This document shows positions 60,671-64,000 of a stretch of 64,000 nucleotides of DNA, piece by piece. Each line of letters starts with the position of its first letter. The first letter of the stretch is position 1. Both the position numbers and the translations under genes were made by a program. Under the pieces are notes generated by a model. That model saw only the letters and a program-made list of their open reading frames with translations, was not told the DNA's origin and ran no database searches. The stretch comes from Shinella zoogloeoides (GTDB taxonomy: Bacteria; Pseudomonadota; Alphaproteobacteria; Rhizobiales; Rhizobiaceae): positions 1,097,501 to 1,161,500 of the forward strand of contig NZ_CP086610.1 in assembly GCF_020883495.1 (NCBI RefSeq). Direction: 5' to 3'.

Positions 60671-61289
60671 CGGCCTCCCGTTCGGCCGGGATCCACGGAG
60701 CCAGCTCGTCGATCATGTCGGCATCGGGATAGACGATCGCGCCGAGCTGCTCGTCGTAGCGGCCGGCATGCGGCGGCATAAAGCCGGTGCCCAGCGCCGG
60801 CACGATCTGCGTCCAGGTGACGGTGTAGTAGGCCACGCCCTGGGCGGCATCGCGGATCGTGAAGAGCGGCTTCAGTTCTGCCGGCGGCGTGGTCTCGGGT
60901 GGCAGAACGCCCGACCGGCCCCACAGGCTCGTTTCGAGATCCGCTAGGATTTCGAGGAGCCGGCCGCCGATCGCAAGGCCCACGGCCTCCTTTTCGACCC
61001 GGCGCGCGCCGACCACCTTGGCCTCGGCGACGATGTAGGCGACCCATTCGACGACAAGGTAGAACATGCCTTCCGCGTGCTGGCCGGTCTTCACCTTGCT
61101 CCAGCCAAGGCCGATGCCGGGGGCGTTCACCACAGTCCTGGAGATCAGCTCGGATACGTCGACCTTGCCCGGATGCGGCACGACGGTCACGCCCGGGTTG
61201 AGCAGCTTCAGGCTGGAAACGATTGCCGCCTGCAGGGGAGCAAGCGGGTCGGTTTCGAGCAATTCGGCGAAGGGTTTCGGATCGATCAT
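60657..61289 (-). CDS. Phage gp37-like (DUF1834) protein, probable tail completion
   Basis: 210 residues from the ATG at 61289, which overlaps the previous stop by four bases; the longer open frame to 61865 is a shadow. The N-terminus DPLAPLQAAIVSSLKLLNPGVTVVPHPG and the later GQHAEGMFYLVVEWVAYIVAEAK fit the Mu gp37 family, which links head and tail. The position between the morphogenesis protein and the spike gene fits. Confidence 0.7.
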   Translation of the reverse strand: MIDPKPFAELLETDPLAPLQAAIVSSLKLLNPGVTVVPHPGKVDVSELISRTVVNAPGIGLGWSKVKTGQHAEGMFYLVVEWVAYIVAEAKVVGARRVEKEAVGLAIGGRLLEILADLETSLWGRSGVLPPETTPPAELKPLFTIRDAAQGVAYYTVTWTQIVPALGTGFMPPHAGRYDEQLGAIVYPDADMIDELAPWIPAEREADEDA

Positions 61290-61762
61290 GGCAGCACCCC
61301 GAAGAAGTCCGTCACGGCGTCGACGATCTCGCGGGCGTTCTCGTCGGAAATGCCGACGAACGGACGGGCCGGGATATCCACCTTCTTGGAGCGAATGGTT
61401 TTGCCGCCGAGCTGGAAGACGAGCGCTTCCGCCGACTTCGGTACGATCGTCATGCCCTCCTGGTGGACGTGCGCCCATTCCCATGCGGCTCCCCACTGCG
61501 CTTCGCTGGCTGAGGCAAAGGAGGCGACGGAGGCGAGCAGATGCTGGCCGGTCTGCATGAGGATGGACGTGTCCTGCGAGTTCGGCTTCCAGGGCGTGCC
61601 GTCCGGCGCGGTCTTCTCCTCGGCGATGCGGCGGCGGGTCTGGTTCTCGCCGATGGCGGCAATGTTCGTCATCAGCTCGGACGGTTCGAAGTCGAACCAG
61701 CGCCGAAGCTTCAGGCGGGCATCGTCCAGATCGGAGGCGTCGAGCGTGATGCCGAAGCTCAT
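61286..61762 (-). CDS. Phage virion morphogenesis protein (Mu gpG / P2 gpS-like)
   Basis: 158 residues. The family block TNIAAIGENQTRRRIAEEKTAPDGTPWKPNS, then HLLASVASF and a C-terminal PARPFVGISDENAREIVDAVTDFF, are the usual signature of the phage virion morphogenesis family, needed for tail completion. Overlaps gp36 upstream and gp37 downstream by four bases each. Confidence 0.92.
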   Translation of the reverse strand: MSFGITLDASDLDDARLKLRRWFDFEPSELMTNIAAIGENQTRRRIAEEKTAPDGTPWKPNSQDTSILMQTGQHLLASVASFASASEAQWGAAWEWAHVHQEGMTIVPKSAEALVFQLGGKTIRSKKVDIPARPFVGISDENAREIVDAVTDFFGVLP

Positions 61763-62217
61763 ATCCGGCCGAGCCTTTCCCTGGTGAACATGCGTACCGG
61801 AGCCTCAACGACGACTTCGTTCTGACCGACGCCGCCGGCATCGCCGCCGGTTCCCGAACTACCACCCGTCGTCGTCAGCGCCCCCTTGCCGGCCGCGATG
61901 GCCTCCAGGCGCTTGATGGCCGTGTCGTGCCGTTCCTTGATCGTCTCGGAAGAGCGGCTGAACGCGAGCGCGATGCGGTAAAAGGCGATGTCCATGCAGT
62001 AGACGCGCAGCACCGCAAGGCTGTCTTCGTCCAGGCTGGCAAGATCGGAGGAGGAATAGCGGGCCGCGAGGATCGCGCGGATCTCCGTCGAGGCGTCGGT
62101 GATGCCGGCCACGATCCGCACATCGTCACGCAAGCCCGTCCGCTCATCGGCCGCGACGAGCGTGAGCTGCTCGTTGTGACGGGCTTCGAGATCGGCGATG
62201 GTGGCGTAGACGGCCAT
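61759..62217 (-). CDS. Mu gp36-like protein (DUF1320)
   Basis: 152 residues. The start MAVYATIADLEARHNEQLTLVAAD and the middle GITDASTEIRAILAARYSS are the DUF1320 signature of Mu gp36, a head-tail connector component of the gp6/gp15-like helical class. A Gly/Ser/Thr-rich linker (TTTGGSSGTGGDAGG) sits near the C-terminus. Follows the Acb2-like gene by two bases. Confidence 0.88.
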   Translation of the reverse strand: MAVYATIADLEARHNEQLTLVAADERTGLRDDVRIVAGITDASTEIRAILAARYSSSDLASLDEDSLAVLRVYCMDIAFYRIALAFSRSSETIKERHDTAIKRLEAIAAGKGALTTTGGSSGTGGDAGGVGQNEVVVEAPVRMFTRERLGRI

Positions 62218-62219
62218 GG

Positions 62220-62468
62220 TTACGCCTCGTCGCCGTCGAGCTGGACGCGCCCGGGCTTGAAGACGGCCCGGTTGATCGCCATGAAACCCTGCTCGATGTG
62301 GGAGCGCCCGATGGCAAGCCAGCGCTGATCGACCTCGGACGAGGCGGTGTACTGGTCGAGAAGTCGAAGGATGGCTTCCTCAACCTTCTTGTTCTCGTTG
62401 ACGACGGCGATCTTCTCCTCGCTCTGGGCGTGGTAGCCGGCGATGGGAAGCCCCTTATGCTCGGACAT
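62220..62468 (-). CDS. Acb2/Tad1-type nucleotide-sponge protein (candidate anti-CBASS/anti-Thoeris)
   Basis: 82 residues with AAAGG nine bases upstream of the ATG. It has the Acb2/Tad1 hairpin pattern: an N-terminal IAGYHAQSEEKIAVVNENKK region, a helix with VEEAILRLLDQY, and the C-terminal block DQRWLAIGRSHIEQGFMAINRAV, which is the most conserved piece of the family. Tyr12 and Lys27 keep the 15-residue spacing of the Tyr11/Lys26 pair that, from memory, binds cyclic nucleotides in Acb2 of phage PaMx33. Such proteins soak up the signal of CBASS (and for Tad1, Thoeris) defence. It sits inside the head operon, not in an early moron. Confidence 0.75.
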   Translation of the reverse strand: MSEHKGLPIAGYHAQSEEKIAVVNENKKVEEAILRLLDQYTASSEVDQRWLAIGRSHIEQGFMAINRAVFKPGRVQLDGDEA

Positions 62469-62620
62469 GGCGATGACCTTTCAAAAGAGATGCGGGCTTC
62501 GCCGCTTGTGTTGTGCCGCTGTTGTGGTGCCCCTGTCGGGCTTCTGCTGCACCAGGGCTACGGGCGATGGGCGACAGGCTTCAGATGTCGACCGGCCCTC
62601 GCGGCGCTCCCGTCGAAATC

Positions 62621-63133: not shown

Positions 63134-64000
63134 TCAGTCGAGAAGCGGAAGCTCCATGGTCTGGACGAGATTGCGCAGCGTGTTGGACGAGCCGCCGATC
63201 GTTTCGGACAACAGGAGTTCCCTCGCCTTGAAGACGTTGCTGCTGCCGACGAGCAGATGCGTGGGCTTGATGTTGAGCTTGCGTCCCTCGTCGTCGGTAA
63301 GCGCCGACATGGCCTGCCAGGCTGCCTTGAGGTTCGTCGCATCCAGCGCCACGGTCGCGCCGTAGGCCATCTGCCAGAAGCCGAAGCCGACTGCCCCGCG
63401 CACATCTGCGCCATAGACATATTCGTCGTTCATGAAGACGTGGTCCGACGACTTCGGGTCTTCCTTGTTGACGAAGCTGGGTTCGCCGACCTTCTGGTAG
63501 ATCCACGGCTTCAGCGGCTTGGAGAGGTCGGCCAGGATCCAGAGATTGGAACCACCAGCGGCATAGTTCGAAACCGACGTCACCGCGCCGGGCTTGCCAA
63601 CGGGATGATCGGTATCGAAGAAGTTATTGCCGTCGAAGCAGGGCAACGACGCGCCGGACGTGACCAGCTCCATCGTGGTTTCGTCGGGATGCAGGGCGAC
63701 GGAATTGCCGAGCATCTCGAAACGCGGCCGGTAGACACCGAGCCGGTCGTAGAAGATGTCGTCGGCGCTGACCGAAACCGTCAACTCGAACTTCCGGTTC
63801 TTGATGGAATAGGCCTTTTCCGTGAGGCCGTGGATGTGGCGTGCGCCGATCCATTCGCGCATTTTGGGGATCGACCCCAGCCAGCCGTAAAGCTCTTCCG
63901 GCGCATCAGAATTGATCACCGTGGCCAGCGACTGGTAGATGGCGGCAGTGGAGGTCAGGCCGAGCTGGAAGGCGGTCTTGAAGCCGCGCCTTGCCGCATC
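63134..64000 (-). CDS. Major capsid protein, Mu gpT family (5' end outside the window)
   Basis: The last 288 codons are in the window; the frame is open to the right edge, so the true start lies beyond 64000 (a GTG at 63919 is internal). The gpT signature is unmistakable: EELYGWLGSIPKMREWIG, then KNRKFELTVSVSADDIFYDRLGVYRPRFEMLGNSVALHPDETTMELV, and CFDGNNFFDTDHPVG. It is an HK97-like fold major head protein. Three hairpins follow its stop. Confidence 0.93.
   Translation of the reverse strand, partial: DAARRGFKTAFQLGLTSTAAIYQSLATVINSDAPEELYGWLGSIPKMREWIGARHIHGLTEKAYSIKNRKFELTVSVSADDIFYDRLGVYRPRFEMLGNSVALHPDETTMELVTSGASLPCFDGNNFFDTDHPVGKPGAVTSVSNYAAGGSNLWILADLSKPLKPWIYQKVGEPSFVNKEDPKSSDHVFMNDEYVYGADVRGAVGFGFWQMAYGATVALDATNLKAAWQAMSALTDDEGRKLNIKPTHLLVGSSNVFKARELLLSETIGGSSNTLRNLVQTMELPLLD

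Follow-up and report, generated by a model that had tools for sequence, protein, structure and literature searches.

An Acb2-family sponge gene in the head operon of a Mu-like prophage of Shinella zoogloeoides occupies a recurrent slot behind the capsid gene

The window analysed here, a stretch of 64,000 nucleotides from Shinella zoogloeoides (NZ_CP086610.1, positions 1,097,501 to 1,161,500), carries an 82-residue ORF which, judged from its sequence, is a clear Acb2-family protein and very probably soaks up bacterial infection-alarm molecules. The gene is another member of an already known family, and the point of interest is its place, a slot behind the capsid gene that is common to two unrelated sponge families. 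No mention of such a head-operon position was found in the open-access literature on Acb2, Acb4 and CBASS in the parts available, subscription papers being outside the scope of the search. The reading that we regard as probable is that of an Acb2-type sponge of a Mu-like phage, made together with the capsid trigger from a standing cargo slot of the head operon. The features concerned are listed in Table 1.

Table 1. Sponge gene, aligned ligand-residue codons and neighbouring head genes, in reading order (positions in the window).
Feature	Positions	Strand	Basis
Major head protein gpT, extending beyond the window end	63134..64000	minus	PF10124, 326 bits
gp35-like head gene, 130 aa	62621..63013	minus	without Pfam or PHROG match; named from position
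152-nt spacer between gp35-like gene and sponge gene	62469..62620	minus	promoter, terminator and RNA-fold scans
Acb2-family (hairpin) sponge gene, 82 aa (ATG at 62468, stop at 62220)	62220..62468	minus	PF24729, 65.9 bits against a gathering score (cut-off) of 27; AF2 model; PDB folds
Codon of Tyr12 (aligned with PaMx33 Tyr11 and T4 Tyr8)	62433..62435	minus	alignments; T4 Y8A (PMC12657230)
Codon of Lys27 (aligned with PaMx33 Lys26 and T4 Lys23)	62388..62390	minus	alignments
Codon of Ser56 (aligned with T4 Thr68)	62301..62303	minus	alignments; T4 T68M (PMC12657230)
Codon of Phe70 (aligned with T4 Phe82)	62259..62261	minus	alignments; T4 Phe82 (PMC12657218)
Mu gp36-like head-tail adaptor	61759..62217	minus	PF07030, 51.1 bits; PHROG 195
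Virion morphogenesis / tail completion gene	61286..61762	minus	PF05069, 59.9 bits; PHROG 26

The ORF and its product agreed with those given by the first-pass annotation, in which the strand was absent. Residues 11–71 of the product matched positions 1–58 of the Pfam profile PF24729 (E 3.6e-18), far above chance, which bears out the assignment to the Acb2/Tad1 family that had been made from the letters alone; the block DQRWLAIGRSHIEQGFMAINRAV corresponds to residues 47–69. When a profile of the sponge protein and 41 relatives was compared with the PDB, Acb2 (8h2j, E 1.3e-16) and T4 Vs.4/Acb2 (7uq2, E 1.1e-7) were found, while the single sequence reached 8h2j at E 1.6e-5 and T4 Vs.4 at just E 1.3. 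The AF2 model of the single chain (pLDDT 89) presented helices at residues 17–38 and 48–70 and no strands, and a fold search with it ranked Acb2 8h2j (with cGAMP) and T4 Vs.4 7uq2 at the top. The model thus shows the build of both structures, a pair of long helices running antiparallel plus an N-terminal arm, and the structure prediction proposed earlier gave, for one chain, a two-helix hairpin.

The residues Tyr12 and Lys27, previously likened to the ligand-binding residues of Acb2, did align with Tyr11 and Lys26 of PaMx33 Acb2, which we take to be residues of its dinucleotide pocket, and with Tyr8 and Lys23 of T4 (the chain numbering of 7uq2 runs one higher), so that both the pocket Tyr and the pocket Lys of Acb2 were found by alignment. 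Lys27 was invariant across 42 aligned sequences, the window protein included. Among the slot copies, Tyr12 appeared in 43 of 49 alignment rows (the others being five gaps and one Cys) and Lys27 in 44 of 49 (three gaps, one Arg and one Glu); L216, L234, L241 and L253, whose contigs had already been counted, were left out of these rows. As for T4 Acb2, the Y8A variant is reported as binding-deficient and T68M as lowered in affinity (PMC12657230), and Phe82 is described as stacking onto the bound dinucleotide (PMC12657218). The position of Phe70 is occupied by Ala in the alignment of PaMx33 and JBD67.

A cyclic di-/trinucleotide sponge acting against CBASS is well supported by homology. Of the two activities offered in the first-pass annotation, inhibition of CBASS or of Thoeris signalling, the former was supported, by PF24729, the Acb2 fold and the pocket residues, and the latter was not. 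Tad1 is described with an N-terminal beta-sheet ahead of its hairpin (PMC12043709), and the Thoeris branch is unsupported because the present protein is a two-helix hairpin without it: within its 82 residues the model has helices only, and no four-stranded beta-sheet domain precedes the hairpin. A Tad1-like sponge that takes up gcADPR and blocks Thoeris is therefore considered very unlikely, even if the Pfam domain is common to Acb2 and Tad1 and a staphylococcal Thoeris system is set off by a capsid protein (PMC11312562). Moreover, gcADPR binding is described for Tad1 and Tad2, and not for Acb2, in the available part of PMC12043709, and Tad1 was absent among the PDB matches listed, which by itself proves nothing. 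Turning to the host, a search of its genome for two families, SMODS (PF18144) and TIR_2, returned no match (with control matches in 3 and 4 of 14, respectively), which counts against an anti-CBASS role, though a temperate phage meets many hosts. Acb2 is reported to act in induction and not in lysogenic maintenance (PMC12043709, in part), which fits the gene being off in the prophage.

In reading order, gpT is followed by the gp35-like ORF, the 152-nt spacer, the sponge gene, gp36 and the PF05069 gene, with baseplate and sheath genes beyond, and by these neighbours the region is a head and tail module, that of a Mu-like prophage. The location between gp35- and gp36-like head genes was accordingly recovered as annotated, the PF07030 gp36 lying downstream, with its start 2 nt past the sponge stop codon, and the gp35-like ORF and then gpT lying upstream. 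From this position the sponge would be made late, together with the head genes. A related second prophage of the same genome carries another sponge copy in an identical gene order. Between the two prophages, the sponge showed the highest dN (0.141) and dN/dS (0.45) of the genes compared, the ratio being 0.40 for gp35, 0.23 for gp36, and 0.15 for both gpT and gpG. In particular, dN/dS was 0.65 over residues 1–45 and 0.17 over residues 46–82 (window 62220-62468 against L002:1471-1719), which is suggestive, for one pair and few sites, of a faster change of the sponge sequence that falls mainly in its first half.

The spacer presented neither sigma-70-like sites (0 found, 0.0 expected by chance) nor terminators (0 found, 1.0 expected), and its RNA fold was not above chance (z 0.26); a regulatory RNA was not retained as a candidate, and the internal promoter raised in the first-pass annotation draws neither support nor refutation from a scan that expects 0.0 sites by chance. 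Among the loci compared, the spacer matched only the two prophages of this genome. Their 95% identity over it is attributed to low divergence (dS of 0.12 for gpT and 0.08 for gp35) and not to special conservation.

The place of the gene had been called unusual, a view that did not survive the comparison with other phages, as JBD67, RcapMu and Lsp-JY19 each have their sole PF24729 match in this slot, which is also filled in many uncultured relatives. The named phages with a sponge in the gp36 slot were RcapMu, RcWaterboi, Leptolyngbya phage Lsp-JY19 (gp36 confirmed) and JBD67. Conservation at this locus among related prophages, which had been put forward as a check, held for the slot, which is recurrent, and failed for the presence of the gene, which is gained and lost. 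A scan with the sponge protein gave 55 loci in IMG/VR and 10 among GTDB contigs, to which genome searches and phage records were added. Hairpin matches were found by profile search at 93 loci (L010, L110 and L124, copies of our own loci, being excluded), of which 29 had gp36 at most 0.7 kb downstream. Within the family sample, PF24729 appeared in 18 of 394 genomes, nine loci from seven genomes lying in the slot (our own two included), while among the 21 genomes of the genus sample it appeared only in the genome of the window. When the Lsp-JY19 copy was used as the query, 47 loci were obtained, of which four were in the slot.

To provide a denominator, contigs were gathered by gpT instead of by the sponge, with the gpT proteins of the window, RcapMu, Lsp-JY19 and L333 as queries. 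These gave the best 80 relatives for the window, 79 for RcapMu (from its best-80 list), 14 for Lsp-JY19 and 37 for L333, 210 in total, and 193 of the 210 contigs had gpT and gp36 in a row. A slot sponge was present in 45 of these 193 IMG/VR contigs (39 Acb2-like hairpins and six Acb4), and 148 had neither. By query set (window, RcapMu, Lsp-JY19 and L333), hairpins numbered 1, 20, 0 and 18, and Acb4 genes 0, 5, 1 and 0, respectively. Only two hairpins and no Acb4 were found outside the slot within 4 kb on either side, so that 45 of 47 sponge matches fell in the slot, which accounts for 6.7% of the DNA examined (sponge excluded). Clustering at 60% identity left seven hairpin and five Acb4 clusters in the slot and two clusters outside. 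It should be noted that the hairpin counts are biased upward, since all four query phages bear a slot sponge, a bias from which the Acb4 counts are free, and that independence of the contigs does not hold, an identical gpT end being common to the members of each of 12 groups, among them Pseudomonas prophages close to JBD67. The sponge is rare in the capsid clade of the window, as just one of 71 window-gpT relatives with gpT and gp36 carried one in the slot. No contig out of 193 had both an Acb2-like gene and Acb4, for which about one would be expected by chance; mutual exclusion of the two families in the slot was thus not retained.

The tree of hairpin proteins (89 rows and 75 columns, without the partial rows L030, L080, L075 and L070) was poorly resolved, with 22 of 76 inner branches starred and bootstrap values unsettled. 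Nevertheless, the Lsp-JY19 slot copy was separated from the remaining slot copies of the tree and joined the PaMx33 type (99/87), from which it follows that hairpins entered the slot at least twice. The labels gp36-slot, gp27-slot and other required 11 changes on this tree.

Acb4 (PF13876) is reported as a sponge of CBASS nucleotides, and eight of eight homologs tested are stated to have bound 3′,3′-cGAMP (PMC11722364). All six Acb4 genes found in the gp36 slot, on six contigs, were above the Pfam cut-off. Acb4 shows no general link with this slot: gpT and gp36 were seen with one of 37 relatives of one slot Acb4 copy, on that copy's own contig. The genome of the window gave no Acb4 match, and the controls were likewise unmatched. 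As regards the hairpins, at 11 loci the sponge was preceded by a Mu gp27-like gene, followed by a gp28-like large terminase gene, or both, Pfam being run on three of these loci; this second late site of Mu-like phages with the sponge family comprises L032, L035, L040, L048, L051, L056, L061, L064, L065, L075 and L089. At the other loci, the neighbours analysed (65 of 67 downstream and 62 of 65 upstream ORFs) matched no PHROG more than three and four times, respectively. Listed among the first 25 of 80 and of 106 neighbour families were ParB-like, methyltransferase, ssDNA-annealing and primase families, and also terminase, head-tail adaptor, portal and major head families.

Several further arrangements were observed. 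Pseudomonas phage KPP23 (L097, 4272-5544) has a 300-aa ORF with a C-terminal hairpin (about 40 bits with our own profile), and 31 bases downstream of it lies an Acb4-family gene (PF13876, 112 bits), so that two sponge families stand in tandem. The hairpin is also the C-terminal part of ORFs at L007:5704-6270 (188 aa) and L090:5761-6288 (175 aa), the N-terminus of the latter being without a Pfam family. A small ORF (MTTKVTV.NHGWPVDVT...) is the sole occupant of the slot of L226 and precedes the hairpin gene in L225, and a stretch that by eye resembles its C-terminus is fused to the hairpin at L063:909-1280 and L091:5860-6231, where a beta-plus-hairpin build like that of Tad1 is possible. In Rhizobium phage RHph_X2_26 (L005, 5444-6249), the gene before the sponge is annotated as TIR-domain, and its Pfam matches are DUF1937 and DUF4406. 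In a collection of plasmids, relatives were encoded by 43 records, 35 of them from Klebsiella, and 12 of the 14 Klebsiella rows listed were 108–113 kb long, a size that brings phage-plasmids to mind.

The first-pass annotation also considered an added structural role, which is unlikely because the gene comes and goes in the slot. On a tree of 78 gpT proteins, the presence of the hairpin underwent 11 changes, at least 10 of them forced by starred branches (a quick method with SH-aLRT support only, L264 and the Acb4 carriers being scored as without it). Loci L219 and L220 are 94% identical in the flanking DNA on both sides, and in L220 a deletion of about 0.2 kb, bounded by two short repeats, has removed most of the sponge gene; a scar of 16 codons is left, and the head genes stay open. 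Furthermore, the slot copy of L030 is broken by a frameshift and that of L080 is without its first half, and no PF24729 match was found in B3 or JBD18. A structural protein should be needed wherever the head operon occurs, and what was found instead is 148 of 193 contigs without a sponge, six with Acb4 and the deletion in L220. That the hairpin was co-opted into the head, for decoration, as a scaffold or for head completion, and lost its nucleotide binding is regarded as very improbable; its location inside the head operon, immediately ahead of gp36, and the keeping of that place across large distances would suit it, but the ligand residues retained in the slot copies, the presence changes on the gpT tree and the missing or broken genes beside intact head genes all speak against it. 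So does the class sample, where 10 other genomes provided 11 gpT+gp36 loci and the first profile found the hairpin in none of them (that profile missed L207 and L264, both recovered by a further seed). The virion proteome of vB_ThpS-P1 and vB_PeaS-P1, in which the slot product ORF37 is reported as undetected (PMC5488378, in part), is irrelevant to this question, since no hairpin gene was found by profile in the head stretch of these phages.

The reading preferred here, an accessory sponge co-made with the capsid, would work as follows. On prophage induction or infection, the sponge would be transcribed with the head genes and would form an oligomer, a hexamer by homology, with pockets lined by Tyr12, Lys27 and Phe70; Acb2 is described as a homo-hexamer that has three sites for dinucleotides and two for trinucleotides (for the hexamer, PMC12043709). 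These pockets would bind the cyclic di-/trinucleotides from CBASS enzymes (and related systems), and the suicide effectors are proposed to stay off because the sponge binds their cyclic nucleotides. With the sponge gene directly behind the capsid gene, trigger and antidote would be made together, and this place would be explained by timing, because head proteins are among the triggers of CBASS and Thoeris. In that respect, the Thoeris trigger is reported to be the capsid and the activator of a CBASS cyclase the prohead protease, and capsid mutations are reported to avoid CBASS (PMC11312562); phages without acb2 are likewise reported to escape through capsid mutation (PMC10419184). The latter source also states that the wild-type capsid gene alone induced no CBASS toxicity in its test, an observation unfavourable to a simple capsid trigger in that system.

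The gap between the gp35-like gene and gp36 would then be a standing cargo site of Mu-like head operons, repeatedly filled by an Acb2-like or Acb4 sponge. An alternative, which we consider possible but unlikely, is that of an ordinary Acb2 sponge in an accidental position, the gap tolerating non-essential cargo without any timing advantage. In its favour, the gap holds other small ORFs and, in L062 (4896-4972), a tRNA-Met (cat) gene immediately ahead of the sponge; most contigs have neither sponge; sponges elsewhere have no dominant neighbour family; in PaMx33 the sponge gene closes the replication block; and the relatives of the slot Acb4 copy were almost all found without gpT and gp36. Against it stand the two unrelated sponge families with 45 of 47 matches in this one gap of the head region examined, and the second Mu-like group, whose gene is in the packaging operon at gp27/gp28. 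A stronger form of the preferred reading is evenly balanced between right and wrong in our judgement: that Mu-like phages would have a dedicated sponge slot, refilled by recombination with the family suited to the host (Acb2-like or Acb4), its antidote being co-transcribed with the head proteins that raise the alarm, and that timing to the trigger, and not early expression, would be the rule for such genes.

The search for anti-defence genes usually goes to early regions and accessory islands. Should Mu-like head operons contain sponges as a rule, the slot would be a place to seek further sponges, an antidote timed to the capsid trigger would become a directly testable idea, and the near-identical pairs with and without the gene (JBD67/JBD18 and L219/L220) would serve as natural controls.

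Among the known systems, JBD67 is the key case, a tested precedent in the same slot with a rescue that is cited as partial only. Its genome (NC_042135) has a single PF24729 match, gp34 (59.6 bits), in the order gp32 (major head), gp33, gp34 and gp36-type adaptor, and is 96% and 98% identical to JBD18 on the two sides of the slot. Acb2 is reported to rescue partly both JBD67 delta-acb2 and JBD18 (PMC13083879, citing Huiting 2023), a study that concerns CBASS (PMC11044969, in part), and the gene deleted as acb2 is the slot gene gp34, given that JBD67 has no other PF24729 match. The JBD67 protein shares with the window protein its Pfam family and its slot in a Mu-like head operon, which has the capsid/gp33 genes on one side and the gp36-type adaptor on the other, and differs in its 108 residues and long inter-helix insert, where the window protein has a short turn, and in the Ala at the position of Phe70. 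Moreover, the JBD67 major head protein has no Pfam gpT match; its record annotates it as major head protein, and near relatives of it were recovered by an iterated profile. The Acb2 proteins of PaMx33 and PaP2 (PDB 8h2j and 8h2x) differ in location, the PaMx33 gene ending a replication block that is convergent to the structural genes, and T4 Vs.4 (Acb2, PDB 7uq2) has a longer inter-helix insert and belongs to a lytic phage. Acb4 resembles the window protein as a sponge of CBASS nucleotides in the same slot, while its Pfam family is unrelated to PF24729. In the RcapMu record (JN190960), RcapMu44 is described as 'similar to cyclic-nucleotide binding domain'. Finally, RcapMu44 of Rhodobacter phage RcapMu and RcWaterboi gp42 share the gene order and 58.5% and 59.8% full-length identity, respectively, with the window protein; both differ in their 96 residues with a longer C-terminus, and their phages are reported to have non-contractile tails (PMC8601537), whereas the window carries sheath and baseplate genes.
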